From Halichondria panicea (taxonomy: Eukaryota; Porifera; Demospongiae; Suberitida; Halichondriidae): a stretch of 64,000 nucleotides of DNA. The notes below the pieces were generated by a model. It searched no databases. It saw only the letters and a program-made list of their open reading frames with translations, and was not told where the DNA came from. A program made the position numbers and the translations under genes. Of this stretch, positions 4,498 to 31,262 are shown one piece after another (the first letter of the stretch is position 1; every line of letters starts with the position of its first letter). The DNA is taken from positions 3,339,803 through 3,403,802 of the forward strand of contig NC_087380.1 in NCBI RefSeq assembly GCF_963675165.1, read 5' to 3'.

Positions 4498-7400
4498 TTA
4501 TTCACACTCCTCCTCGTACATGGAGGCAATGACCACTGGACAGGCCTTTTCCATCTTAATAGCGTACCACAGCACCCTGGTGGTCACTCCAGACTCCACC
4601 CACTCGCTAATTAACTCAGCATACTCAACAGCACTCAGACTCTTCGTACCAGTGATCGTGGTTCGATACGTCGTCCTTGTCGGGGATTTGTAACATGTGA
4701 AGTAGCCAGGTTGAATATTCCTCATGGGAATGTCATTTCCACTCTTTTGACTTTGTACTGCCTTGGTGATGGCAATGTGCATGATCTTGTACATCAAATT
4801 AACCGTTTCATCCTATAAGAAATGAAACACATTGTTCAATGATGAATTTAATGACCAGGTGACTTACAGTCCACTCCACACAATAGCGAGTTGGCCCGAA
4901 CTTGAGTTGGATCATTGTATTGTCTGTATGAATGAGTAAAGTTTTTAATCTAATCTGGCTCAACAGGTTTACCGGCACAGAAGGGAGGGTCACATGACCA
5001 GGTGCCATTGGACTGACACACAGCTGAGGGGCATCCAGTGAGGTTGTAGCCTGTGGCACAGCTGTACACGACAGTGTCCATAAAGTGAGTGCCTTGAGAT
5101 GTGTTCACATGACCATTAGCTGGAGCCTCAAGAACACCACAATCCATGGCTACACAGGGTGATACCAAACAGCATAATTAAGGTGACATATTTTGGCGGG
5201 TATTAATTTCTGCTGTTTCTGCAAATCGAACTCGCAGATAATTGAAAAATGCAATGAATCTCATTTAAACCCACTTGCAAGTAATTAGAAACGCTATGAA
5301 TTTCATAACTTGAGCAGAATTTAAAGAAATTGTACGACACCTTGGTAATAGTATAGTATATACTGAGAAGATTATTGGAAAATCTATACATGTCCTTCTC
5401 CCTTCTGCTCGCGAGACTAAGCGGTACCATGACAACTCACGGTCACATGATGGTGCTGATGCTGACCAATCTCCACTGGCAGTACATGTACGACTAGCTG
5501 CTCCGTTTAATACGTAACCTTCATCACAACAAAACACAGCCACACTCGTGTAGGTTGTTCTCAACTCAGTGTTTTTAGGTTGTCCGTTCTCGGGAGGCTC
5601 CAGTGGACCACAATCAACAACTATATATTATTATTATGACTGTGTGTATGCAGATCAAAATTTGTTGGTGCCTAGGACACCTGTACATGTACATACGTAG
5701 ACTATAGTCTGCAATATTTTAGCTATAGCTATAATTACACCTGCACATCATTTTTGGGATTGATATACCCATCTTACTTTTACAAACTGGTTCTGAATGA
5801 GACCAATGACCATCTTCTTGGCACTCCCTTGAGCTTACTCCAACTAAATCGTACCCAACATAGCAAGTGTAGTTAGCTCTATCCATAAATTTTGTTCCAG
5901 ACGATGTGTCCACTCGTCCATTAGTAAGATTAAGGAGGGGACCACAATCCACAGCTGTATACCGACATGTAAATACAACCTATAAATTGACACCACACAA
6001 AAGTATTTACGATTGCAAGTAGGGGCTTCCGGTCTCCATTGTCGGTCAGCATTGCATGTACGTCTCTCGGGTCCATTCAGACAATATCCACTATTACAGG
6101 AGTAGATAGCCTCACGTGTATAGGTAGTCCCCAAGGATGTGTTGACAGTTCCATTTTGAGGATTTATTAAAGGCCCACAATCAACGGCTATAATTATGTG
6201 CAGGAATAGTATAGAGGTAGAGCAGTAGCCTAATACCCAGATGGATGCACCACATACTAGGGCAATCTCAAAGAGTGCTTATACGTAGATAAACTAAACT
6301 CACGATCACAGCTTGGCATTTCATCAGACCACTGCCCATCTTGTTGACACAATCGTGAGACCACCCCCTCCAAGACAAAGCCGCTAGCACAACTGTAGGT
6401 GGCCACACTGCCACACTCAGTGTTGGGAGAGCTCTCAACAGTTCCATTCATGGGAGCAGTGAGCCGGCCACAGTCACTGAGAACTAAAGAAGATTCATCA
6501 AAATACTCAGTGAACTCTGCTATGTGAGCACATTAATACAGTGGAGCCGCTTCGTAATTGAGACATTATAGCAAGGGAGCAATGTTTTGGCTGTTACATA
6601 ATTATACAAAGGTGGCCCATATATAATATATATGAGGTTGGTTTGGGGTGGCTGGAGGGGTTCAACTTTTTAACATCGTACGGTTATGACTGTACATCGG
6701 TTCCACTCAAAGATAATTACCACTTGATACAGATCACAACTACAGAGAGACAAGTTACCTCGGCAAGTAGGTGGATCAGGAACCCAGTCTCCATCTGCCC
6801 CACAAATACGTACTGAAACTCCGTTCATACGGAAACAGTTGTCACAGGTGTACTCGGCTTGGCTGTTGAAGAGTGTCCCTCTCGTTAAGCTTATTTGTCC
6901 ATGTGAAGGAGCAAAGATCTGCCCACAATCCACAGCTGATCATGAATTAATCATACACAATTATGTACATGAAGCATTTAACTCTTACGTTGACATGTAG
7001 GGGCTATACCACTCCATGTTCCATCATCCTGGCACCTCCTCACTGCTTCACCATTAAGAGTGTTTCCTGTGTGACAATCGTAAATGGCTTCGGTGCCTGG
7101 TGGTCTATCATCTCTGGTACCATCGTTGTACATAATAGTGATATCTGCCATATGCTTGTCTAAATCTCTGCAAAACACTGAAAGAATGGGATCGAATCAT
7201 ACCAATTTTTTTGAGGGAAACAAATTGCCATGCACTTACGAACCTCGACAATGTGGTGCTGATCCAGACCAGCTACCAGAGTTAGAGCACGTTCTAGTAT
7301 TGTCTCCAACCAGAGGGAACCATTTTTTGCAAGTATGAGTAGCCACAGTAAGTGTTGAGTTGGAGTAGGATATTATCCCGTTGGTCAGAGTGAGAGATGG

Positions 7401-7991
7401 GCATACCACTGGATGTACATGCAGAGCAAACGTGCACAGTGATGTTTCACATACATGTATAACAGACTGGAGTACAAACTACTCACCCAAGTTGGCACAA
7501 AGTGTCATGTCTCCTCTCATAGTTGGCACAGTGCAACAGTAGGACCCGGTTAGATTTAGAAAGTTAATACTTTCGAATTCTCTACGAGCCAGTCTGATGA
7601 GTTGGGAAGCATTCCTCACAATGTAAAACTGCTGTCCAGCATTCGCTGAAGCATATTTGTTCAGTATCACACTCCCATTAGGATACGCCCAATGTCCCAG
7701 TCCTCCATTACCATTGTTGTCAGCTCTACTTCTACAGCAGGCAGTGAGGTCAGTGTGACACGTGAGAGGAGGTAGACCACCATTAGCATCCTCTCCGATA
7801 GCAGTGATGAGGATATTAGTGTTGTTGATGGTGATGGTAGTTGATCTCAAAGTCAGAAACACTGCCAGGAGAAATGTTATGTTCCCTTCATGATAGGTAT
7901 ACAGGACATACCACTTACCTGGTTGTGCATGTCCAATTGAAATGCAAATAGTTACAGCCAAAATTAATGTAACGATACTGAAGGCCATCAT
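4498..7991 (-). CDS. Secreted Ig-like/multi-sushi (CCP) protein
   Basis: Twelve exons on the minus strand: 7919-7991, 7487-7861, 7244-7408, 6989-7177, 6759-6935, 6304-6483, 6011-6187, 5778-5954, 5441-5620, 4973-5149, 4868-4923, 4498-4812. The total is 2241 nt (746 aa plus stop) in one frame. Exon 1 encodes a signal peptide (MMAFSIVTLILAVTICISIG). Exon 2 is an Ig-like module with paired cysteines (TACCRSRADNNGNGGLGHW, GSYCCTVPTMRG). Exons 3-10 are eight sushi/CCP domains, one per symmetric phase 1-1 exon, each with the MDCG...C...C..GYxLxG...C...W...PxC pattern. The last two exons encode a cysteine-containing tail I do not recognise (RYCVEWT, QPGYFTCYKSPTRTTYRTT). There is no transmembrane segment. 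It is probably an extracellular recognition or adhesion protein. The donor at 7243/7242 (GT-TCGT) is weak and is the least certain junction. Confidence 0.82.
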
Positions 7992-9904: not shown

Positions 9905-10604
9905 TGCTCTTAGTGTAACCAGAAATGCCCACTTAGCAAATATCTAATCATAAGATCATGTGGTAAGACTGATAGAAGACTCTTAATTAACAATGAATTG
10001 GTAGACAATACAAGTATGTGGCAAGTCGTTTTTTTGCTACATACACACACATCACACACTCTCACCTTCTCTCGATGACCCTCCATAGTTGCATGCCTCC
10101 AGAAATGAGGTTCCTTTCATTTAATAAATGGAGTGAGGACCATGAAACTTTTCCAGTAGATTCTATATACCAGAGGCCCCTGTGAATAAGTCCCTTTTAA
10201 AACAACTGGTCCACTGTTCTCCTGTTGTCGTGAAGACTGAGTGAAGCCTGCATGGCCCAATTTGTCTATTTTCTGAAAAAAGTGTGGTCTATATTAGGAG
10301 GGTATAAGTATAATTATATATATTAAGTGATCTTACTCAATACCCACCACCCAATACTACTATCATTCAAATTAGGCATATATATAATTATACTGGTAAT
10401 TATATATTGAGTGTCAGTGAAATGGAGTATTGCGCACGCTAAGGTGAAAGGTTATTCCAGTAGCTCATTCCACTGATTCAAGAAACCCGGTATATTAAAG
10501 ACTCTACCACTTCAAGACAACAAAAATTAAGTTGCACAACAGGAAATCATGGTCAAGTGGAGATACATGACATAATAACCACAAATAAGCATAATAAGAG
10601 AGAC
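9905..10604. other. Intergenic, no gene seen
   Basis: AT-rich sequence without a supported open frame. AGAGAAGGTGAGAG on the minus strand near 10070 looks like a splice donor and might belong to an untranslated first exon of the transporter remnant, but nothing supports it. Confidence 0.4.
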
Positions 10605-12225
10605 TAGTCTTTAAGAGGTTTCATTCCTAGTTAGGCTCTAAGTTTGTTGGCCTGTCTAATCTCTTCTGTCTCTTTAGTGCTTCTTTTGCTTCTGCTCTTA
10701 CTCTTCTTTTTATTGTCCTTTTTCTCAGTCTTATGGCCATCTTTGTCGCTGCGAGACTTGCAACTGGAGTGCTTGGAGTGACGATGGCGCGAGGGTAAGG
10801 GTGAACGGCTCTGGCTCCTCTTGCGCCTGGGATGGTCTGATAAAGGAGAGTGGGGAATGGGAATGTGATTGACTTACTGTCACGTCTTTTGAATCCTGTG
10901 TAGACATATACACTGTCCTGGTTGAGCAGCTCATCAATGAACTCGTCAATATGTAAGAGCTCTAACTCTGCAAAAGAACAACATAGCATGGCTATAATAT
11001 CACTTCAATCTCACATGGTGGCTTTACCACGTCCAGGCAGACAATAATTGGCTTAAGCGGTTAAGTGCTAGACTCCTACATGTAAGTGAGGTTTGGATCT
11101 TTTATCAGTACCGTATACCCTTGCAAAAATACGCCAACCCTTTTCTGCAAGAAGTTGAGGCTTATTAGGAGATTGGGCGTATCATCCCGAACGGTTACAT
11201 TTGTGGCCATGTATGAACATATCATTGACAAAAATGTTAATAAACTAATGCATGAGTGCATGCATGTGATTAAAAAGTGATAAGAATGAACATGGAGAAG
11301 TTAAGTAGACTCTATAATCTATTCGTTGTTCGTCAGATGTAGCAGCAGAAACTTCCCGAACGATGGAAAAGTTGTATCCTATAGAGAGCTATCAGGTACT
11401 TTGTTTCAGCAATCCAAGGCAAAGTAACCTGCACAATTGGGTGATGACTTTGTTCTCCTGCAGATTTGTGTTAATTGTTCCCTTTCTCTGGATATAAGAC
11501 TAATAAAGTCCAAGTTTGGCCCCAGAAGTTATGTGGTCAAACATGGCTTCATTTATGTTTTAAATATGCTAAGGGTGAAGCTTACACGTGCTCTACAGAA
11601 GCGCTTTTAACAAGTATATGAAATTTTGAATTTCAGCTAGTGAAGTATGACAAGTTTTATGACAATTAACATGATGAAGATCAACCTCAACACAATTAGT
11701 TGTTCCCTGCATATACATCTTCAAGGCAAACAGATCCACAGAGAACCTGATCTTGGTCCAACAAAGAGTAGAGTCAAAATAGCTACTATACAACTAGCTA
11801 CTATATACCTGAAACATAAACATGTGGCATTTAGCTACTGCGCATGCTCAAACTCTTCCTTCTGGGTGGGCGTATATATCGAGTCAAATAAATACTCTTG
11901 TGTAAATAGGGAATGGGCATATTTTCGCGAGGGTATGGTATATACGCCAGCGAGGCAGTAAGTGGTGAGTGGTTAGTGTGGCACAGTAGTGCCCAAATCC
12001 AATGGTTTGCAACCACGGTTAAATACACTTACCTCGTTTATTTTCTTCAGCTTCCTGTATACAGTATTGTAGAAAGTAATTGTAGCACTCCATAATGCAG
12101 CCTCAGGTAGAAGGCACCAAGGGCACGCACATATCTAGAGGGAAAAGGGCTCAATAAAAAGAGTTTACTAAAAACCTTGTACGCTGTAAGAGTTTGAATA
12201 CAGATTGTCACTATTATAATGAAAG
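10605..12225 (-). pseudogene. Partial decayed duplicate of PRPF38A
   Basis: Near-copy of part of the intact PRPF38A gene at 22547-26184. Positions 12025-12120 match exon 3 with indels. Positions 11025-11105 and 11945-12005 match intron 3. The exon 4 match (ELELLHIDEFIDELLNQD) runs straight into exon 6 sequence and on to 10627. Intron 4, exon 5 and intron 5 are absent and the RS-rich frame is shifted. Because intron 3 was copied along with the exons, this arose by DNA duplication, not retroposition, with a later internal deletion. A transposon (11109-11944) has since entered the copied intron, and a MITE abuts the other end at 12225. Confidence 0.85.
11109..11944. mobile_element. Non-autonomous DNA transposon inside the PRPF38A pseudogene
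   Basis: The PRPF38A intron 3 copy is interrupted exactly between about 11105 and 11945 relative to 24470-24510. The insert has imperfect terminal inverted repeats: ACCGTATACCCTTGCAAAA on the left and the complement of TTTTCGCGAGGGTATGGTAT on the right. It has no transposase frame. The terminus resembles the MITE at 15289-15499. Confidence 0.65.
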
Positions 12226-12755
12226 CATCGCGGGTGCTGATGCCTCGGTGGAGGTGTCAAAGCTACATAACATAAAGCTACTATAGCTATACACACATTA
12301 TATATCATGATGCATTAATTTTGCTGCAGAAACTCAAGGAGTGGGTAATGATCAACTATGATTGTTGTCAAAAATGATCGATGCCAAAAGTCCAAGTCTA
12401 AAATGAATGGCTGCACCAGCAGAGCCTTGCAGCTCATTTTTCACTTTTGCAGTTACCAACAGCTAGCGTTCTAGTGCAGAGCTAAGTTACTAAGTAGAGT
12501 AGCACTGCAACACTCCATGGACAAGTTTTGCTATGCACTTTTATTCCAATTAAGTAAGCAAAACTAGGCATAACTCGAGAATGAAGTTGCAAATCCACGA
12601 ATTAAAATCCAAGAAAACATGACTTAAAGCCTATAGAAACTCTTACTTGAACTTCATTGATCCTTGAGCAGCTGTAGCAGTCTACACAGACACACAAACA
12701 AACACACTAGCGTATACCTCGCTTGCGCATGCGCACCGAAGCATGTAAACATCCA
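12225..12755. mobile_element. MITE family B, copy 1
   Basis: About 510-bp non-coding repeat running from GCTGATGCCTCGGTGGAGGT to CTTGCGCATGCGCACCGAAG, with imperfect inverted ends (ATGCCTCGGTG). Other copies lie at 13345-13840, 18378-18890, 20205-20640 (rearranged) and 23286-24180 (opposite orientation). Confidence 0.8.
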
Positions 12756-12882
12756 GCTCAACACAGCTACAGAGAGTGCGATACGGGTATATATCAAGTC
12801 AACATCTTGAATTTGGGCTTAAAAGGAATCTATGACTCACAATAGCACAATTTGCTACGTTGTACATGTAACTGCATGAACA

Positions 12883-15800
12883 TCAAAACACGCCGAATGC
12901 TGTATAGTTAGTACATGTACTACTTCGTACAATATTGCCTAGGAAGCTGACGAGCTTAACTATTATGCCATATTGTGTGAACTCACTTGTATGCTTGACA
13001 CAGGCCTTGTGAATGCTACGAATTGCCTCCCCGTCTTCATTCTTTGCAGCAATTGCCACTAATCGACCGTAAGTAGCTGTTGAATTAGATGGATTGTCGA
13101 AATCAATACTTCTCCTTTTCCACTTCTTTAGAGCAGCGTAAAATTTCCCTGGAACACTAAAGAATGTCTGGGGATTCTGATCGATATCCTCAATCTCAGC
13201 ATCACTGAGGCCTAGCCTGTGCTTGTAATTGCCATAGCCAGCAATTTCGGTAGACAACTGGAGAAGAGCTTCATCCGAGCAATGTTGACTCAACTGAGCT
13301 GCAGTCGCTGTCGTCTCATGATGATGAACTGCATAGATAAAAATAAAAGTGCTGATGCCTCAGTGGAGGTGCCAAAGTTACATAACATAAAGCTATATAC
13401 ATGTACTTAGTTTTGTACACACATTATAATTATCAAGCCGGATGAACATTTATTGCATTAATTAATTTTTGCTGCAGGCAGAATCCAGAATCATGCACGG
13501 GGAAACTTAAGGAGTGGGTAATGATCAACCATGATTGTTGTTAAAAACCAGTCTAAAAGTGATGGCTGCATCAGCAGAGCCTTGCAGCTTTCTTCTCTCC
13601 AACACTCGGTGAACAAGTTTTTCTACGCACTCTTCTGAAAAGGCTGCAATGGCATTCCAAGTAAGCAACTCGAGAACGAAGCATTATTTTGAAAATCCAC
13701 GAATTAAATCCATGACTAGAAGTCTATAAAAACTCTTCTTGCACTTCATTGATCCTTGAGCAACTGTAGCAGTCTACACAGACACGCAGACAAACACACT
13801 ACCGTATACCTCGCTTGCGTATGCACACCGAGGCATAATTATATGGACTGACAACGCACATACATTGTACATGTGCACGATTGTAACTGTGAAATGATCA
13901 CAAATTGAACAATACCTGACTCAGTGGGGACTCCATCAGTAACTTCATGTAGTTGAGTCGCTGTGAGGACATAACAGTCACATGAGACACACTTACACAA
14001 TGCAACGGTCAAGGCTATACCTAAACAACCTCTTTTAGACCAAGGACTGAGGTAGGCTATATAGATTGTACATTTAGTGCTAACATTCGTAAGTGCTCCC
14101 TAATAAACTTCACACTGGTACGTGGGTTTGTATAAGCTAAATTGTGAGAAGTATAGGATATACCACATCTACGAGGAGGATATGCACCTATATATCCTCT
14201 GCTACCGTGGTTACTCCGAGGGGTGTGTAACCATGGTAGCGGAGGATTATACAGAGTGCATATCCTCCGAGTAGGTGTGATATATCTGACTTATGCCACG
14301 TGACCGCAGCACTATATAGAAGGACCTCCTCCAGCAACAATTCAATCCATGGATGCATAATTATACTGCAAGAGCAGGACTATGCTGGATTTTGCAGTCA
14401 AGAGCTATAGCAGCATGAAAAACAACCTAGAACACTCTGCATGCCTGGGCTGTATGTTATTACCTGAGGCGCGTGTGGGCGGCCACGGGTATAGTAGTAC
14501 TTTGGTTTGTTTGACTGTTTGTTTATGATATGTGAGCCTACTCACCTGGATGCCATAGCACTGCGTTTACAGCATGGATAGCCTCCATACAACAAGTAAA
14601 AGTGACAGATTTCGATGTTAAAGCTTCGTTGTCGTATAAAAGCGAGCAAAACCTAAGAAGCTTGAACTTGCATGTGGCAGCTAGCTAACTACACGCGGTC
14701 TTTATTCGAGACAGACTACGTATTTACAGCTGAAGTGATCTCGTACCAGGAACAATGGGAAAGGGTCCCTAAAGTAGAAAGCTAGAATTGTGACTGGTTG
14801 TTGTCTCAGCTGACTCGACTCTGGATCCTAGCACCAAGACTCCAGGAGCCATACTTCTCTAAGACTCGACCAGACTTCTTTGAGTGCATGTCTCATGTAC
14901 CACGACAACTCTGTTTCATCATGCCTACGTTTCATCATGCCTCGATCCAGTCTGGTTTAGTTTTATTGTTTCTGACTTGTTGTGCTAGACAGTCAGTCAT
15001 ACGATACATACTACATGCACTGCATTATATCACTCCTCTGGTTTCATGTCACCAGCCGAGGGTTTGCACTTTAGTGCTCTAGTTTTTCTATGTATCATAC
15101 AGCTGTTGACCAATGAGATAAATTAGTGGTGACGTAAGTATAGTATAAGTATAAGTTTAAGTTGTTATTGTGAGGCAGACACAACATCGGAATGTACATG
15201 TAAAAAGCACTGAGCATTATGGGAGCCAAAAACACAAACTAAAAAAATCTGTCTCCAGTAAAACAAACCTCGGCCCACATAGACAGTATACCGTATAGCG
15301 GGTATATTTCGAGGGTATAAATTTTCGCGGAAATGCCTTTAAGAATGGTTTTCGCCGTTTTAATTTTCGTGGAATAACGCTTTTTTGCAGCAATGCATGC
15401 ATGCAATATTAAATTTGCGGTTATAAATTTTCGCGGTTCATGCCTAATCAGTGAAAACCACGAACATTTATACCCTTGAAATATACCCACTATACGGTAA
15501 GTTCGTGAGGTTAGATAACTCACTTGTTTCCTTTTTGTAGAGCGCTGTGTAGACAGTGAGGACCACTATCCCAGCAGCTTGATCCTTTACCTCACACCGG
15601 TAGTGACCAAAGTCTTTCTCACTCACACTTTGGAAGCTGAGAGCGTTGGGGCGATCATCAGTTGTCTTGATCTGACGTCTGGAGCCCTCTTTGGTCCAGT
15701 AGAAGGAGAAACCGTCCTCAGCAAACTGTAGTACCTCTAATTCCGTGCTGCTTCCTAGAGACACGTGCTGTATGTGTAAGAAACCTTTTAAAGCAGACAA

Positions 15801-18800
15801 GCTTGCCTTCGATCTGATTCACATTAATTTTACTTCTATACGTAGATATAGTTTAGTGGTACGATTTTATTTGCACACAACAGAATGCACAGCACATTCA
15901 TTTTGGCTACATGTACATGCATACACACAGTAAACTGAGGTAAATTTACTTGGCCCCTTTTCCATACATGTATCTTTTCGCCCAATAAAAAGAACACACA
16001 CTTATTTACGAAAACTCAACAAGACGAGAATGACAATTTTCACTTGCCTTCCCCAACCACACTTGTTGTCCTTCACTGAGGCTGACAGGACTTCTACCAC
16101 ACAGGAAGTGAATCTTTCGGCCTTGAACAAGGGTGCAAAGGCTGTTAAGACTCTTGCTTGCTGCATGTTTGGGGCATGAGCATTGGAATGCAATACTGAG
16201 AATCAATTTTGGAAATAAGATATTGAGCAAGTATAGGATTGCTGACAGAGTGTGGGAGCAAAGATCGTGAAGGGAGAAATCGCTCTGTTCTGGATTGCGT
16301 TCAACTCGTATCTCGTAGCTTCTATCGTGAGAGAGCAGTGTCACTTTGTGTACATAGTCAACATAAAAGGAGACAGCGTTTCTCTTTACATGATCTTCCA
16401 CTAATTCCCACGTCAATCCGAGAATTTCATGAGGGCCTTGGGAAACTAGTCGAGTGATCAGCCCACAGAAAACTCCTGTTGGTACGTAACCAAAGCTGAA
16501 TGTGATATGGAGTGGTTCTGGGTTGTTGGCATCTGGAGGTGGGTTGGTCAGCTTGTCTTGCGGAGCACAATCCAAAATAGCTGGCATCAGGTAGGTGGTT
16601 CGTTCACCATCTTCATCTTTGTGTGTGATCTCAGAGAGAAGGTTAAGGTACTTGAGAAGCTTCACAAGCGGCTGGGACGGTATCAGAAACTTGTTTTCTA
16701 TATTCTTTGTAACTTGAACATCCAATTGGCAATGCCGCTCGATGGCCTGCAGTGAAAATTGACCTCTCCTGATCAATTCGGCTCGCTCACATTCAGTATC
16801 GTAGCCTCCACCATGAACACTATGCATAGAAATGATTATCAGTTGGCTTATGCTATCGAAGATCACTTGAGGTAAACAGATGACGTGACGTTTGAGAAGC
16901 CAGCGTGGATCGTCATCGTTGGGAACATTCGTATAATACAGGATTGAGCCTATACAATGAAGGTAGAGGAGACATATTTTGGTTTCATCTTCATTCATCT
17001 CCAGCCTTTTGCCAATTTCAATACAATCCTCTACTGTGGCAATTTGATATTCCTTTCGAAGAATAATTCCTAGTACAAGCCAATTCTTTGATATTGGAAG
17101 AGAGGTTTTGCCGAAGCGAGAGTAGAATATTTTATTCATTAAGCCACGTAATGGAGAAATTTCAGTGTTCTCTGTGCCTTTATCATTATCGAGTGGAAAA
17201 AAGGACATCCTGTCAGAAGAGCAATTTGCATCTTTATCGGAAGTGTCATCAGGTTCATTTTGCTTGGGAAAAACTAAAATTTGTTCAAAAGTTTTGGTGA
17301 TTGGCTTCAATGCTGTGTTTATTTCTGCCATTTTTTCTCTGGTCAACCTTTCTTTTTCTGGGCCGTCTGTTGAATCTCTGCCAAGCTTATCCTTGTGGGT
17401 TCCTATTAGGGCTGCCACTGGAGGCGCTGTGAAGAAAGCATCAAATTTTTCCTTCAACTTAGTATTTTTTAAGAGAGGCTTTGACATTTCTGACATGTGA
17501 CGCACACTAGCAATTGATGAGAGGATTTGAGAGACTGCGGTTTTCACTGTGTGCATCGATTTATAAGGAGTGATGACTTTGCCGTCTCGACTAAATGGAA
17601 TATCGTAGGGCTTGTCAAGTTCCTTGCTCAGATCTAAGAACACTAGATACATGGCCGGGCCGTTGCTCAGAGCTGGTAGCATTTCTAAGAAGCCTGGCTG
17701 ACCTCCGACATCGTTGATGTTTAGCAAGGTGTTGCCAAGACATTTGGTCATTTGAGAGTAGTTTCCGCTCTTTATCAGTTTCCCCAGCCGAAGAATGATT
17801 TGTGCCAGTTTGTTTTGATGGTCTACAGCAGCTTTATCCTCCGAGTCAGCAGGTGTAGCTTGTTGTACAGTTTGTGTGTTGACTTTGTGAGGTACCCTTT
17901 CTTCATGTCGGCTGATGGGTGTGATGTCTTTTTCACCAGAAGGTGATACCAATATTTGACCACTTGTCATTTCATCCTTGGGTAGATCTAAATCATCGAG
18001 AGTCACATTGCCACATAGATAGCCAAAAATCATCTTGGCTTCTTCATCGACATCCTTGGAAGATATCCACTCATCTTCATTAATCAATGCCATGACCTGG
18101 ATACAGTTAGCTAGTAGAGTGCTGGGATGTTTGGCCTTGTCTCCAGCTGATCGAATGTTTTCGTACACCTGCAGTAGACGATTAAGTGTAGTCGTTTTCC
18201 CAACGTGAGGCGGACCAACAAGAAAGAGCTTCAAAGTGCACATATCGATTGTTTCTTTATCGACCATTAGAGTCATGAGTCTATCGAGGTATCGCCGCTG
18301 CCATTTGATAACTGCAGGGGGAACACCATTTACGTTTAACGCGATTAACACTAACATGCAAAATGAAAGCACCACGGGTGCTGATGCCTCGGCTACATAA
18401 CATAGGGCTACTAGCAGCTATTGCTATACCAATTAAGAGTTCATTAAGAACTCTTGCTAATACACACATGATTATTATGATGAACGTTTGCTCAATGAGT
18501 GGGAAATGATCGACTGATCGTGATTGTTGCTAAAAAGGATGCCAAAGGTACAAGGTCTAAAATTAATGGCTGCTGCATCACTCTTGCAGCTACCAATAGC
18601 TAGCGGTCTACATACTACTAAATAGAGTTGCAACACTCCATGGATAAGTTTTGCTACGTACTCTTTTGAAAAGGCTGCAATGGCATTCCAAGTACATGTA
18701 AGTGCAAAACTAGGAATAACTCGAGAGCGAACCATTATTTTGCAAACCCACAAATTAAAATCCAAGAAAACATGACTAGAAGTTTATATTTTACTTGCAG

Positions 18801-21800
18801 TTCATTGATCCTTGAGCAGCTGTAGCAGTCTACACAGACACAAATACACTATCGTATATACCACGCTTGCGCATGCGCACCGAGGTATTATTAATACTAA
18901 TCACTGTATTGTTAGTAAACACGCAAATTCTACACGCAAACTTATTTCCAACTTACCAACATCCTATATACCCCTTGCTATTTACCTTCATCAAGTTGTG
19001 TCCTGAGGTTGGCAGCAAGGTCGCTGTGACCTTTGTCACGTAGGAGCTGTTGTATTTGTTCGAATTTTAGTAGACGCAGGGCGGGGGGAACTTTGATTTT
19101 GTTGTCGAGGAGCAACTTTTTTAGAGCATCAGAGTCTTCATCAGTCAATGCAGTGCCTGCAACATAACGATGTTGGATGCATAATTACATATACTATATG
19201 TACATGTAATTTGGCACACTTAGGCTATTGATATAACGTCATACGTAATTGCAGTATAATACTAGAAAATAGAATCAGCATCTCGAAGAGGAATTAAGGG
19301 AGTTGCCTGGAACCGTTAGGAACTGTGTATATACACATGGGTAATGCAGGCACCTAGCATGATCATTGTTGTGCTATATATAATAGAGTCTCCTACCAGT
19401 TGTTTCTGGCTGTTCATTGCCAGCACTGGATGTCCGTTGACCGGAGAGAGAGCCAGAGGTCACTGGAGGAGGAATGAGAAAGTTACATGTGACAGTTGCA
19501 ATTAATAATAGTAAGTCACCTTTTCGATTTTTGGTTGGGGGTGGTGATCTATTCTCCTCACTCCTGGAGTCACTTTCTCCAGTCATAGCAGCTGTATACG
19601 GAGAGTAGCTGTGTTGAACCAGACTGTGTATACTCATAATCGTAGTGCGCTTACATTCTTGAGGTAGAGACTTGAGGTAGTCAGCAATTTCAGTAAAACC
19701 CTCCATTGTAGCAAGGTCAAGAGGAGTGTCCCCCTCATCGTCAGTTGCACCTGAACAAGAGTGAGTGTAGAAACAAAGCTGAGGGGTGTGTTTTACTCAC
19801 CGATATCACAGTTGACCTTCTCTACCAAGTATTGCACCACATCTTTGTGTCCTCTGTAGCATGCAAAGTGGAGAGGGGTCCTGGACCAGTTATCATCTTC
19901 CCTCACATCTGCACATTACAGACGTGCGTAATTATACAAGAAAATGACAAGTATACTATCAACTGAGGAAGGCTATTTTGGTAAGACATCTGTGTGTACA
20001 ATAAAATTAAGTGGGCATGCAGAATAGCCGTCATAGTACAATGTCAATTCTCAATTTAATAGCATTGTTGTCAGATAATTGATATTATGCACGGTCGTGT
20101 CCTGTTGTGCTGTTAGCTGATTAGACGTAATTAATGGCCCGGTTTTGCTAGTACCATTGAATTATACACACTCGAGCAGATAGGAATAATCGTAATATCT
20201 TGAGTAGTTAACATCTTGCAGCTACCAATAGCTAGCGTTCTAGTGCAGACAGATCTAGAAGGTAGCAAATTAAGGGTGCTCAAGCACCCTTTGGAGAATT
20301 ATCTGTGTGTCTCACTCATTGACTGATTGAAGGCTGAAGTCACTCCTAGCCTTGGTACTTGCTGAGTATAGCTGTCCTACAGAGCTAACTACTAAGCAGA
20401 ATATAATTTTATAGCTACTTAACACTCTATGGACTACACACTATTCTGAAATAGCTGCAATATGGCATTCCAAGTATCGAGAACAAGGCATTATTTTGCA
20501 AACAAAACACAACTTAGAAACCTATAAAAGCTCTATTTGCACTTCATTGATCATTAAACAGCTATAGCAGTCTACACAGACACATACCACACTATACCGT
20601 ATATACTTCGCTTGCGCATGCACAAAAGAGGCATAATGGCATAATGGCATAATGAGAACCATCTAGATTAGCTATAGTAAGGACAATAACCAAATAAGGG
20701 CATTAGCACCAAACCAGGACGTGATCATACACACAGTACACTAACACATAATATTATGCCATACATCATTTACCACTAACGAGGCTAAAGGTTGTTACAC
20801 TTCCTATAACACTCTGAAATCACCACAGGTACAATATACTGTATATTTGATCAGAGGCCGCTCTTATAATCATAAAGGTCGCATTCAAATAATAGCCTCT
20901 CTACAGCCCATCTTCAGTGCAATAGAAGCCGCTCTTAAATAGTAGCCTCAGTGAACTTTGAAGCTATGTCTCTGCATGTGGCAGCCAATTGATACTGGTA
21001 TCTACGACAAACTAAAGGTTATTGAAATAGCTGGGGCTAATAAACGCCTCTCTTGAACAGTGGCCTCTCTCGAATTGTAGCCTCCTCTGCCAGCAAATAA
21101 AACATTTAGTAACCGCGGCAGGTATATACGGTACATGTACATTATGACACTCACTCTTGGGATCAACCTTGTCTTGCTCAACCAGTTTCTTCACCACGTC
21201 CAGCTTGCCACACCGACATGCTGCACACAGTAGTTTGGCGTTGTTGTCCTCATCACTACCACAGCCACGACTCATCAGGTAAAGGGCAACATCCATACAG
21301 CCTTCATACAGATATACCAGAGCTATGTCCAACGGTGATTGTCCCTTATCATTCCTCACATCTGTACATTATACAGACATGCAGATTTCGTGTAAACTAA
21401 ACTCATTTCGCGGATAGAGATTCAAATGACCACACCCCTACAGTAGAGAGGTTTCAATACTGTTTTCGTTGAACTAAATTTTCAAGGTTCAAGGTCAATC
21501 CACAAAAATTTAGTGCCTAATCAGATACACAGAATATGATTTAAAAATACATGTGTACAGAGACCTTAATCAGTAAAGCTCACCAACATCCATCTTCAGC
21601 TCCTCCACCAGATACTTTACCAAGTCTTTACTTCCTTCCACACAAGCATAGTGAAGAGGAGTCATGTTATATTTATCCCTCACACCTGTTGTGGAACAGA
21701 GTTCAGCTATCACACAGAAAATATTATTGTCGAAATTATTGATTCAGATATGGAGGAACAATAATGTACACAAATAATTATAAAGACAACATTGTACTTA

Positions 21801-22260
21801 CCAGTGCTACATCCGACTTCTCGAATCAAGTAATCCACTATCTTTAAATGACCTCCCCAACATGCATAGTGAAGTGGAGTAATGTTATCCTTCCCACCAC
21901 CTTTATCAGTATGAGCTCTATGGGTAACAAGCGTCTTCACAATCTCAAGGTAGCCCTTACTACAAGCTCTGTGTAAAGGAGGCTCCCTCTTCCTCTCCTC
22001 ACTCCAGTAGAGCTGGTGGTTAGGGTCCGCCCCCTGTCCCAACAGGGACGTCACTTTGATGATATCACGATATGCTACAGCATCCCATAATTCCTTGGCT
22101 AGCTTCTTTTGAGCACTATAATTATGAGTACAACATGGGTGGGGGTCAGTCGAGTCCGATGATATATAAAAGTATAGATCTACAACTGAATACACCACAA
22201 GCAAGCATGCACTGTATATAATTCTTACTCTAGCTCAGAGTCTTGTTGACTTGTGTCCAT
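12883..22260 (-). CDS. Ankyrin - Roc/COR GTPase - Ig-like - Death domain protein
   Basis: Thirteen exons: 22229-22260, 21802-22115, 21584-21685, 21155-21361, 19801-19908, 19655-19750, 19520-19591, 19397-19462, 18986-19156, 16044-18311, 15524-15754, 13916-13960, 12883-13328. The total is 4158 nt (1385 aa plus stop) in one frame, nearly all joints in phase 1. Domains in order: about six ankyrin repeats (TPLHYACWGGHLKIVDYLI, TPLHFACYRGHKDVVQYLV); a polar linker and helical segment; a Roc-like GTPase with P-loop GPPHVGKT (422-429), G3 DVGGQPGF and G4 THKD; a COR-like region; an Ig-like module (FYWTKEG, FGHYRCEV) that resembles MALT1-type Ig folds but lacks the first cysteine; and a Death-type fold (LGLSDAEIEDIDQNPQ, KFYAALKKWKRR). 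It has no signal peptide, so it is cytoplasmic and DAPK/ROCO-like in layout without a kinase. It is likely a signalling scaffold or sensor. It could be two adjacent genes, split before the Ig exon. Confidence 0.68.
13345..13840. mobile_element. MITE family B, copy 2
   Basis: Same orientation and ends as the copy at 12225-12755 (GATGCCTCAGTGGAGGTG to CTTGCGTATGCACACCGAGG), with small indels. It lies in the intron just upstream of the Death-domain exon of the ankyrin/Roc gene. Confidence 0.8.
14157..14289. repeat. Palindromic MITE/hairpin in an intron
   Basis: Near-perfect inverted repeat: GGATATACCACATCTACGAG and the following sequence pairs with CTCCGAGTAGGTGTGATATATC. The centre is at about 14222, in the ankyrin/Roc gene intron. 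No coding sequence. Confidence 0.7.
14460..15085. repeat. Interspersed repeat family C, copy 1
   Basis: A repeat of about 620 bp beginning TACCTGAGGCGCGTGTGGGC and ending GCCGAGGGTTTGCACTTTAG with TGCTCTAGTTT. It is related over its length to 60705-62169. Lies in the intron between the Ig-like and next exon of the ankyrin/Roc gene. Its internal ACCTGGATGC...CTGTAAACG stretch can imitate a minus-strand exon, but it recurs in every copy. Confidence 0.75.
15289..15499. mobile_element. MITE family F (TACCGTATA ends)
   Basis: About 210 bp with long inverted ends: TACCGTATAGCGGGTATATT on the left and its complement ending TATACGGTA on the right. The right end lies 25 bp from the Ig-like exon donor at 15523. 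Confidence 0.8.
18378..18890. mobile_element. MITE family B, copy 3
   Basis: GCTGATGCCTCGGCTACATA to CTTGCGCATGCGCACCGAGG. It fills most of the intron between exons 18986-19156 and 16044-18311 and ends about 65 bp before the Roc exon acceptor. Confidence 0.8.
20205..20640. mobile_element. MITE family B, rearranged copy 4
   Basis: The 3' half of family B (ATAGCTAGCGTTCTAGTGCA to the CGCTTGCGCATGCAC end) is recognisable but interrupted by about 130 bp of unrelated sequence. It lacks the 5' third. Confidence 0.6.
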
Positions 22261-22546: not shown

Positions 22547-25500
22547 CTAGACTTTAAGAGGTTTCATTCCGAGTTTGGCTCTAAGTTCGTTGGCCTGTCT
22601 AATCTCTTCTGTCTCTTCAGTGCTTCTCTTGCTTCCGCTCTTACTTTTCTTTTCTTTGTCCTTCTTCTCAGTCTTATGACCATCTTTGTCGCTGCGAGAC
22701 TTGTGACTGGAGTGCTTGGAGTGACGATGGCGCGAGGGTGAGGGTGAATGGCTCCTCTTGCGCCTGGGATGGTCTGATGAAGGAGAGTGGTGACGACGTG
22801 GGGAATGGGAACGAGAGCGATGACGGCGTGGGGAATGGGAACGAGAGCGATGGCGACGTGGAGAACGGGAACGTGAGCGACTGTGCCTTCTCTTACTGTC
22901 CTGTGGAGATCTGCTCCGTCTGCAAGGGAGATACAAATTTTAAACATTCCAGAGTGGATAAGCTTGCATCCTACAGAGACAGATACATTTTCAAATTTTT
23001 CAAGAATTAGAGGATTAAACAATCTCTTTCCTAAATGTACCTCTTATGTGATGGAGACGAGTGTCTCCTGTCAGTGGGGCTGGGGGAGTGTCTGCCCCTC
23101 ACATCCTCCTCCTCCTCGTCAGACTCCCCACCAGAGAGGTCCTCGTCCAGAGCACTCACCCTCGGCTCCAGCTGCTCCAATTGCTCGAGAATGTGTCTAA
23201 AACAAGAGAGTGAAATGCATACAACGTGAATGACGTGTCTCATCAATAGAAATAATGCTCCACTATTGCAGCATTGGATATGCTTTTATTATGCCTTGGT
23301 GCGCATGCGCAAGTGAGGTATACGGTAAGTGTGCTTGTGTGTATATGTCTGTGTAGACTGCTACAGCTGCTCAAGGATCAATAAACTGTAAGTAAGAGTT
23401 TCTATAGGCTTCTAGTAACGTTTTCTTGGATTCGTGGATTTGCAAAATAATGCTTTGTTCTCGAGTTATGCCTAGTTATGCTTACTTGGAATGCCATTGC
23501 AGTCTTTTCAGAAGAGTGTGTAGCGAAACTTGTCCATGGAGTGTTGCTACTAGTTAGCTCTGCACTAGAACGCTAGCTATTGGTACATGTAGCTGCAAGA
23601 GTGAGAAGAGAGCTGCAAGGCTCTGATGCTACTAGCAGCCATTTGGACTGTTGGCATCGATCATTTTTAACAACAATCATGGCCAATCATTACCCACTCG
23701 TTGAGTTTCTCTGTTCTGCATGCAGCAAAATTAAAAAATGTTCTCATGATAATTATAATCAATGTGTGACAGTGTATAAAAGCAAGAATTTATGATAGAG
23801 AGAGAGTATCGAACGTAGGCATACTGTGTATCAGATGTATGCGGAGAGTAACGTGACTTCCTGTATCTGTCACAAGCTTGGAATTTGCACACTGACCAAT
23901 CCAAGCGTGGGTGATGTAATCTATCAACCCATCCAAGTGTGGGTGATGTAATCTACTTTCTTGATAGATTACATCACCCACACTTGGATTGGTCAGTGTG
24001 CAAATTCCAAGCTTGTGACAGATACAGGAAGTCACGTTACTCTCCGCATACATCTGATGTACAGTATGCCTACGTTCGATACTCTCTCTCTATCATAAAC
24101 TCTTGATAAAAGCTATTGCTATAATAACTAGTAGCTGTAGCTTTGACACCTCCACTGAGGCATCAGCACCCGTGGTACTTTTATGTACAGCGAAATGGAA
24201 GCATTAACACAGCAACTAAACACACCTCTTTTGAATCCTAGGCAGGATGACATCACACGCTCTGTCCTGGTTGAGCAGCTCATCAACGAACTCGTCAATA
24301 TGTAAGAGCTCTAACTCTGCATAATAACATACCGATGAGTTAATCAACAGCTAACTGAACTTTGACCTGGATTAATTAGTGAATAAGACGACTTTTACCA
24401 GGTAGACAATAATTGGCTTGAGCGGTTGTGGGTGTAATTGGACTCCTACATGTAAGTGGGGTTTGGATCTTCTACAATATTATAGGCCTTCAATAGTCAG
24501 TCATTACAGCGAGGCAGTTGGCGAGTGGTTAGTGAGGCACAGTAGTGCTTTTTTTAAGCATATGTTCACGAACCAAACCAAATCCAATGGCGGGAGCTTG
24601 CTTACCTCCATTCTTGTTCATTCTTTTCAGTTTCCTGTAGTCATTGTAGAGAGGCTCCAAGTAGTTGTAGCACTCCATAGTATCCCCTGTCAGCCTCAGG
24701 TAGAAGGCACCAAGGGCACGCACATACCTAGAGGATCAAAGCCACTGTTTAACTAATGATTTGTACGCTGATTAAACAAGAGTTTAAATACATACATGTA
24801 GGCACTAAAGCTTAAGATTGTACACACTATTATAATTGGTATGGAAATATAAAGCTCTACACAAGTGCTAGTCCAAGAGTGAGCTACAGAATGTGATCAT
24901 TCATGGGTTATCAAGTCTAGAGACTTGGTCTGGAAATATAAATGGAATAATGACTTCACTTAGCCTCGTCCCCATATACCCATAGTCTCGCGAGCAGACG
25001 TGGGAGGGAGGGACCGTCTGGTCACTATTGCAGCAATTCCGTGGACCCCTGCCAGAATGTTGGCAGTGCCAATCAGATTTGTCCACATTATAGTGGGCGG
25101 TAACACCCCGTATATTTTCCTATTATAGCATAAAATGAACGTGAAAAGAAGGATTATTGACTCTAGCAAAGGCTAATTTTAGTGTTGAACCATACCTGGC
25201 TGCGAAGGAACTCAGTTTACAAGGAGTTCAGACCAAGCAAGAGCTAGCTAGCTGCGAATGAAAATATTTGTCTACATGTGAATTTGGTTAATTAACTAAT
25301 TATCTTGCACGTGACTACATTCCTCAGTGCCATGGAATTGCTGCAATAGTGACCAGACGTTCCCTTTAGGACAAGTCTGCTCGCGAGACTAATATACCCA
25401 CTCCTCTCCTTGTAAATGCACCCATCAAATTGCTAACTGGACATCTAAACACAAACACACTAGAACACCTGCTCATGTACGTTTTATAACATGCAACGCT

Positions 25501-30500: not shown

Positions 30501-31262
30501 GAAAACAACCGCACTTGTTCCAAGAGATAAGAATGTATACATTTTTTAAGTACTAAAGGTCAAATTGAGTATGTATTTTTTCACATGCAGGTAAGAAAGG
30601 AATTCTTTCGGATGTGGGATGACCTCCTTGCATTGATGTGCTGGCAGTTGGAAGACATGGTTGATGTTCCCTCTATTGACACTACATCTGTTCAAAATGA
30701 ACTAACATTATCTCTAAGCACAATGGACTCTACTACTACATGTACAAGTCAACAAAACCAAGTATGTATTTTGTTTGTTTTTTTAATCATTTTAAATTAT
30801 TCATTCAACAGGAAGCTGTGGATACTTCTGCTAATACTGCTCAAGTTATGCCCACACCCAAAAGTACGTATAATTTTTAATTATGTATACATACATAGTA
30901 AAATTACAATTATGTACATTTTGGCTTTGTCAATCGGTCACTATAATTATATTTATTATACAGTTGTTCTGAACGCCCGTGACCATCTGAGGGAAGCAAA
31001 GACAGCTTTATGGGATGTGAGGGCCAAATGGCGCAGCTTCGGCCTTGAGCTGGGAGTGGACCCCTATACATTGGACTCCATTGCCGTGAAATATCAAAAC
31101 AACCCTGACGAGTGTCTCCCTCAGTTGCTGCAACACTGGATGGACAGTGACAAAACGGACCCCACCTGGGAGAGGGTAGTCTACGCCCTCAGGGCTAGGC
31201 CTGTTGGGTTTACACAATTAGCTCAAACTCTTAAAAATAAGTACAATCTAGATCTACCATAG
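27512..31262 (+). CDS. NACHT-LRR receptor with C-terminal Death domain (NLR)
   Basis: Cytoplasmic NLR-type innate sensor. Exons: 27512-30361, 30427-30480, 30591-30761, 30812-30863, 30964-31262; 3426 nt, 1141 aa. The NACHT domain begins near residue 88 with Walker A GHAGIGKT (94-101). The Walker B region reads LLIIANGWDEL (168-178), with Asn where most NLRs have Asp; sensor ITSRP follows. A winged-helix-type region (SFLHLTFQEYLAAMHIL) precedes LRRs spanning about 540-950 (LYLNKNQLTSTGI, LCLSKNQIDYRGI). A Death domain closes the protein (RAKWRSFGLELGVDPYTLD, NNPDECLPQLLQHWMDSD, GFTQLAQTLKNKYNLDLP). The 54-nt second exon could be skipped without frame loss. No N-terminal CARD/Death exon was found upstream, though an undetected one cannot be excluded. 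It is tail to tail with PSME3IP1, stops 122 bp apart. Confidence 0.88.

Follow-up and report, generated by a model that had tools for sequence, protein, structure and literature searches.

A predicted ankyrin-Roc-COR-Ig-Death gene of the sponge Halichondria panicea belongs to a large mosaic family

Comparison with described ROCO and Death-fold proteins

ROCO proteins, among them LRRK2 and DAPK1, are relevant to disease, and what they did ancestrally is under debate. Roc-COR units bind and hydrolyse GTP and dimerise. The gene described here lies on the minus strand (22260..12883) of a 64,000-nucleotide stretch of the genome of the sponge Halichondria panicea (G000:C4:3339803-3403802), referred to below as the window, with all family counts taken from this one genome of 131.46 Mb. 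It is predicted to encode ankyrin repeats, a Roc-COR unit, an Ig-like module and a Death domain, in this order, and is a member of a family that numbers at least about 110 Roc places across the genome. This membership, and the exchange of segments among the copies, had been missed by an earlier reading of the window made from its letters only (the sequence-only reading).

In DAPK1 the Roc-COR unit is situated between the ankyrin repeats and the Death domain (PMC6320773), so that, in the available part of that source, the order of ankyrin repeats, Roc-COR and C-terminal Death domain is common to both proteins. DAPK1 differs in possessing an N-terminal kinase, whereas Pfam returned no kinase match for the window protein (nor any caspase or NACHT match), and here an Ig-like exon is found between COR and Death, with about 110 places in the genome as opposed to one human gene. 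In place of a DAPK-family kinase, a separate gene was identified upstream, the open frame of which ends at 22547, 287 bases from the start codon. The DAPK-like layout without a kinase that had been proposed for this locus therefore holds. Kinase-less ROCO proteins such as MASL1/MFHAS1 also share Roc-COR with the window protein, but possess leucine-rich repeats (LRRs) where ankyrin repeats, Ig and Death are found here.

Combinations of Roc-COR with immune adaptor domains have been described among invertebrates, as far as the accessible text of the sources extends: sea anemones join Roc-COR to TIR, Death or kinase (PMC5094078), and in Aplysia its partner is TIR (PMC9334734). The partners in sea anemone NG1/NG3 and Aplysia are TIR, LRR, kinase or SH3, and the order ankyrin-Roc-COR-Ig-Death is not described in the same portions of these papers. 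Brown algal LRR-ROC-COR genes resemble the present family in their expansion with exon shuffling and are proposed immune receptors, but in the part of the report available it is LRR exons that are shuffled, with no Ig or Death output (PMC11378527). The oyster HEPN-Ig-DED-TRADD-N proteins are an expanded family combining Ig repeats with a Death-fold domain, with Roc-COR absent from the architecture as described in the text at hand (PMC8195603), and a sea cucumber receptor is reported, in an extract, to combine Ig and NACHT (PMC8699970). NLRs likewise join repeats, a nucleotide switch and a Death-fold adaptor, a likeness of working only, as they use NACHT and not the Roc GTPase.

MALT1 similarly carries cytoplasmic Ig-like domains beside a Death-fold domain, though in the order Death-Ig-Ig-caspase-like, and not as a single Ig before Death. 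The tandem Ig-like domains of MALT1 assemble into dimers and tetramers, according to the part of the source available (PMC3179463). In H. panicea itself, ankyrin, Ig and GTPase genes are reported as responsive to lipopolysaccharide (LPS), with the architecture described here unnamed in the available text (PMC8242945). The sequence-only reading knew of no named protein with this order, and none was found in the portions of open-licence papers that were searched.

Gene model and splicing

Thirteen exons giving one frame of 1385 residues had been proposed, and this model was reproduced (1386 codons with the stop, internal stops 0), with GT-AG ends at 12/12 introns and phase 1 for introns 2-12. 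That a single gene crosses the boundary from COR to Ig was likewise borne out, by the junction shared among copies and the linkage described below, while the coordinates of this junction were found to need moving from 16044/15754 to 16048/15767, because the copies show a VWLGK/GT donor and a CAG acceptor. The long Roc-COR exon could be read to its end in 14/30 Roc loci (window included), and all 13 readable copies besides the window end in VWLGK followed by a V codon equivalent to a GT donor. The Ig frame of the copies starts directly after a Q fitting the CAG acceptor. The corrected junction is GC-AG and phase 0, and yields 1388 residues with no internal stop.

Examination of intron 10 in 30 Ig-centred loci identified a GT donor in 25 and a GC donor in the window only (AAG/GCAAGT, after 16048); the search pattern picked the wrong place in three (L032, L052, L057) and had no match in one (L046), none of these being counted as GT. 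The intron is short (about 50-320 nt), with the same junction in 25/30 Ig loci. An AATAAA at 15871 lies inside the window intron and is absent from the place read as intron 10 in the 28 other loci scanned. In several copies Roc-COR and Ig were seen in one open frame, which was considered as proof of fusion and dropped, as the short intron merely happens to be open.

Exon 13, which had been drawn to 12883, was found to hold the Death domain, with a phase-1 donor, GTGAGTT, after 12987 that is kept in the window and 5/5 copies read. As this donor is common to the copies while the frames behind it diverge, the last ~35 residues of that model (12986..12883) are probably intron. The true last exon after 12987 was not found in the window. 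A short exon (cag/GA LEVMDQSRP) was observed downstream of Death in the copy on C11 (L062) and in L052, but not in the window or the remaining family loci examined, and comparison by BLASTN of the 5 kb downstream of the window Death exon with two copies gave a single short match only. Exons 1, 8 and 12 were unmatched in a TBLASTN comparison of the model with two copies and are predicted from splice signals alone.

Domain evidence

The window protein alone gives a strong ankyrin match (Pfam Ank_2, E 1.3e-44), while profile support for Roc, COR, Ig and Death was obtained only through the copies; it is these matches of family copies to the profiles that make the four assignments convincing. Pfam Roc was identified in 13/13 aligned members at E <= 0.05 (best 4.2e-4; scores, where given, fall short of the gathering threshold), with COR-A directly after it in 10/13 (best 5.8e-6). 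The motif columns of Roc (P-loop, switch II, THKD) are invariant in 13/13, the K of THKD nearly so. The top rows of a search of the Roc-COR profile against PDB sequences were the Roc of LRRK2, aligned through the P-loop and switch II at E 0.05, which is not significant on its own. An invariant set of Cys and His residues (C710, C712, H715, C725 and C737 of the exon 10 product; window 16099-16182, minus strand) was also observed before the Ig exon in 13/13 rows, and could be a metal-binding element.

Each of the profiles Ig_3, ig, Ig_2 and I-set matched 22/22 Ig copies at E <= 0.05 (best 7.1e-7), and the Ig profile matched many Ig domains among PDB sequences (best 2.2e-6, a multi-Ig chain). An Ig-like module before the Death domain, as had been proposed, was thus identified, though not the proposed likeness to MALT1: the Pfam matches are generic and no MALT1 chain was present among the 60 of 117 PDB matches listed. 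Columns V12 and C58 are invariant in 22/22 copies, the F-strand Cys being kept with V at the expected B-strand place (strands placed by inspection), so that the canonical B-F disulfide of the Ig superfamily is missing from all 22. An Ig domain without the B-strand Cys would suit the cytoplasm.

The Pfam Death profile matched 22/26 copies at E <= 0.05 (best 3.8e-7); the window row gave no match at this threshold. A genome scan gave Death scores over the cut-off at C1:5393964, C1:5420984 and C10:4429630, which are 61, 61 and 64% identical to the window Death exon. Death of RIPK1 appeared in four PDB rows of the Death profile search at E 0.09-0.13. Single-sequence AlphaFold models of the window Death exon (mean pLDDT 51.9, mostly helices) and Ig exon (mean pLDDT 45.4, mostly strands) were too poor for use in fold assignment.

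Family size and module linkage

Searching the genome with Roc gave at least 123 matches, merged by hand into 114 places, 57 of them at >= 48% identity and 57 below. The other lists comprise 65 Ig places kept of 109 matches (COR-end pieces and weak matches dropped), the best 100 of 137 Death matches, and 101 of 130 ankyrin matches (general ankyrin genes dropped); family counts are lower bounds, with merging by hand. For 54 of the 57 closer Roc places an Ig exon was found within 4 kb downstream on the same strand, and for none on the opposite strand, with gaps of 1208 to 1912 bp. The three exceptions are C1:4664657 (Ig at 6.8 kb), the adjoining fragment C1:4662907 and a partial match, C1:11232478. 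The full order of modules that had been proposed recurs across the genome: an ankyrin-Roc-Ig-Death(A) chain, where A is the Death type of the window, was found on one strand and in order at 11 loci including the window, and Roc-Ig-Death(A) at 7 further loci (up to 9 kb allowed between elements; the list of 57 Roc places used for chains includes two of 38-40% identity).

None of the 57 distant Roc places was accompanied by any of the 65 listed Ig copies; on C2, 4/5 are followed by a weak Ig match (E 0.004-0.12) lying 1.46-1.49 kb downstream. Four distant loci were read, and all four possess a similar-sized exon after COR; in three a Death-like exon comes next, and the fourth locus is cut off at this point. 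The locus on C4 alone passes the Pfam cut-offs (ig 23.2 vs 21.8 bits, Death 24.8 vs 22.6), while those on C2, C3 and C6 carry an exon without an Ig match at the Ig place; the Death exon scores 12.8 bits on C2 and was judged by eye on C6. The distant copy on C3 (L088:2464-7770) bears a very long repeat of the SDSTTADK/SKSDSTT type in its Roc-COR frame (open frame of 1769 residues). The Ig copy L046 carries a stop, indicating that the family is not wholly intact. A further 32 type A Death places and 41 ankyrin places lie more than 9 kb from any listed Roc copy, and these lone modules may be used by other genes.

Death exons of at least three types were distinguished downstream of the same Ig. 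A Death exon was observed downstream of all 30 Ig copies read, within 1.5 kb in 28 (type A 5, B 9, C 13, A and B together 1; two matches, L040 and type A of L055, cut by the locus end) and on the opposite strand in 0/30. In the remaining two, the window and the C11 locus, type A lies 2223 and 2295 bp downstream. Over the whole list, the window's type lies within 3 kb of 16/65 Ig copies. Types A and C share 23/91 aligned residues, A-B and B-C gave no useful alignment, and the Pfam Death matches of B (0.001) and C (0.0028) do not reach the cut-off.

Selection and mosaicism

The ratio of nonsynonymous to synonymous change (dN/dS) between the window and its copies was calculated by the Nei-Gojobori method with our own script. 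Values were 0.18-0.25 for the whole Roc-COR exon (4 copies), 0.20-0.50 for Ig (5 copies), 0.14-0.54 for Death (6 copies) and 0.58-0.71 for the first ankyrin exon (3 copies, 104 codons; 0.65-0.85 among those copies themselves). All modules compared are under purifying selection, and the ankyrin repeats appear to change fastest with the Roc-COR switch conserved.

Within the Roc-COR exon, third-position identity was found to drop at alignment column 685 from 0.78-0.79 to 0.42 in L006, L007 and L008 and to rise at column 602 from 0.46 to 0.84 in L023, the observed chi-square being reached in 0/300 shuffles for each. Twelve copies were tested, of which these four have a clear jump, with shuffles that treat sites as independent; L002, L003, L004 and L009 have no breakpoint in this exon, and weak breakpoints in L025, L027, L029 and L030 were equalled in 16, 7, 21 and 0 of 300 shuffles. 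Identities of Roc and Ig to the window were uncorrelated over 48 Roc-Ig pairs compiled by hand, leaving out partial or split matches (Spearman 0.17, p 0.25): three pairs combine Roc >= 80% with Ig <= 51%, and 24 combine Roc <= 60% with Ig >= 70%. The family is a mosaic in which segments have been exchanged among copies. With the breakpoints and the uncoupled Roc and Ig identities, gene conversion or unequal exchange would be the simplest account.

Proposed function and alternative explanations

Gene layout, its recurrence, purifying selection and mosaicism were all observed in the genome. On balance, the locus is probably one gene, a ROCO variant resembling DAPK without its kinase, that would act as a GTP-switched cytoplasmic sensor or adaptor; from the order of its modules, we infer the following biochemical steps and cellular role. 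The ankyrin solenoid would bind a ligand or a guarded partner, and binding would alter the nucleotide state of Roc-COR and the way it dimerises. The Ig-like module may aid self-assembly or mask the Death domain, and Death domains, once exposed, would cluster and recruit Death-fold partners, leading to a defence or cell-death signal. With recombining modules and at least three Death types, the family could couple many inputs to several outputs.

A fast-changing input, a conserved switch and an exchangeable output form the pattern expected of a receptor repertoire. It is proposed, tentatively and as something short of probable, that this early-branching animal possesses an undescribed set of about 110 intracellular receptors that recombine, and that in this repertoire Roc would take the part of NACHT, ankyrin inputs would diversify, switch segments would be converted and Ig-Death exons would be swapped among at least three types, as a combinatorial innate immune or allorecognition system. 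If true, about one hundred kinase-less ROCO genes with Ig and Death would suggest that ROCO switches serve as animal innate receptors in parallel to NLRs. Such a family would also supply many natural variants for testing how Roc-COR controls Death-fold assembly, and its mosaic exchange would offer a direct test of receptor repertoire diversification in an animal without adaptive immunity.

Several results weigh against the sensor reading. The window alone scores below the Pfam cut-offs for Roc (E 0.029, or 0.0013 for the piece, through the P-loop only), COR-A (0.0065; 0.00094 for the piece), Ig_3 (0.004; 0.00018 for the piece, and 3.4e-5 once the corrected start of the Ig exon was used) and Death (0.11, for the exon by itself only), and a search of the Death profile against PDB sequences gave 8 rows, none of them significant, with an unrelated effector (0.06) at the top. 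As 9 kb was allowed between elements, some Death exons in the chains may belong to neighbours. The contrast in ankyrin dN/dS comes from 104 codons in 3 copies, with the maxima of Ig (0.50) and Death (0.54) coming close, and the higher ankyrin value may reflect relaxed constraint. The missing last exon, the GC donor and the AATAAA in intron 10 mean that this copy could be damaged.

Four other explanations were considered. The main rival holds the protein to be a DAPK-like scaffold that serves ordinary signalling in cell death, the cytoskeleton or development and does not sense microbes or damage, with copy number resulting from duplication and gene conversion, without selection for diversity. 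Its layout does equal that of DAPK1 after the kinase, in the part of that source available (PMC6320773), and purifying selection acts on all modules compared. Set against this are about 110 places, an ankyrin exon that changes fastest and the occurrence of three Death types after one Ig, all unusual for housekeeping, and we regard the scaffold as unlikely. Gene conversion is common in tandem clusters generally, which agrees with a scaffold. An allorecognition or self/non-self family, in which polymorphic intracellular receptors would trigger death or rejection upon fusion of unrelated individuals, would fit a large, clustered and mosaic family, and allo-incompatibility of sponges and cnidarians is cited alongside cell death in the accessible text of PMC8195603; such systems, however, usually need a surface component, and this explanation is improbable.

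Slimmer still is the chance that the family is functional but its window copy a pseudogene in decay. The GC donor (as opposed to GT in 25 other loci read), the AATAAA in intron 10 and the failure to find a last exon would agree with decay, but the copy maintains 1388 codons without a stop, its dN/dS against the copies is well below 1 (though pairwise values partly reflect the constraint on the copies themselves), and GC donors usually take the form AAG/GCAAGT. Two separate genes, ankyrin-Roc-COR ending after exon 10 and an independent Ig-Death, are very unlikely. Reading through the donor does soon meet a stop, the open frame ending at 16006, and an AATAAA is present at 15871; this division was nevertheless rejected on the recurrent Roc-Ig linkage (54/57 places) together with the junction and short intron shared by 25/30 Ig loci, with the acceptor of the Ig exon matching the COR exon in phase.

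Features of the locus and neighbouring genes

Positions of the exons and modules of the ankyrin-Roc-COR-Ig-Death gene within the window
Feature	Coordinates	Strand	Evidence
Exon 1, start codon (MDTSQQDSEL)	22229..22260	-	Splice signals and frame; unmatched in two copies
Exon 2, first ankyrin repeats	21802..22115	-	Pfam ankyrin; 130 similar genome places at E <= 1e-10
Exons 3-6, more ankyrin repeats	21685-21584, 21361-21155, 19908-19801, 19750-19655	-	Pfam Ank_2; GT-AG phase 1; exon 6 matched in C11 copy
Exons 7-8, Ser-rich linker	19591-19520, 19462-19397	-	Exon 7 matched in C11 copy; exon 8 in neither copy
Exon 9, linker between ankyrin and Roc	18986..19156	-	Found in both copies compared, 51 and 47% identical; no credible Pfam match
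Exon 10, 5' part, Roc GTPase (P-loop GPPHVGKTT, DVGGQ, THKD)	17260..18311	-	Pfam Roc in copies; invariant motifs
Exon 10, 3' part, COR, ending VWLGK; COR-A match about 17061-16804	16048..17259	-	COR-A in copies; dN/dS
Intron 10, GC donor (AAG/GCAAGT), CAG acceptor, AATAAA at 15871	15768..16047	-	Junction of copies
Exon 11, Ig-like domain without B-strand cysteine	15524..15767	-	Ig profiles in copies
Exon 12, 15-codon linker (uncertain)	13916..13960	-	Splice signals, phase 1-1; unmatched in two copies
Exon 13, Death domain type A, core 13302-12988	12987..13328	-	Pfam Death in copies
Tail of the sequence-only model to TGA, probably intron	12883..12986	-	GTGAGTT donor in window and 5/5 copies

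The upstream gene was found to have an Arg/Ser-rich tail at 22547-23200 on the minus strand, with a HIND motif match (0.00057) below cut-off, and resembles the splicing factor PRPF38. A second copy of this tail is present downstream at about 10595-12140 on the same strand (256 bases at 90% identity), so that the ankyrin-Roc gene is flanked by direct repeats of its neighbour's 3' end. The end of a second, unrelated Death-domain gene was identified at 30966-31262 on the plus strand (Pfam Death 30.6 bits vs a cut-off of 22.6; 29.3 bits in the genome scan). A sushi-repeat (CCP) gene lies near the family member at about 6000-7990 on the minus strand (Pfam Sushi 3.6e-13, one repeat). Stretches of the form gtgtagactgctac..tgctcaaggatcaatgaa were seen by eye in introns and flanks near 12640-12760, 13720-13850, 18760-18880 and 20510-20640 on the minus strand, and appear to be an interspersed repeat.

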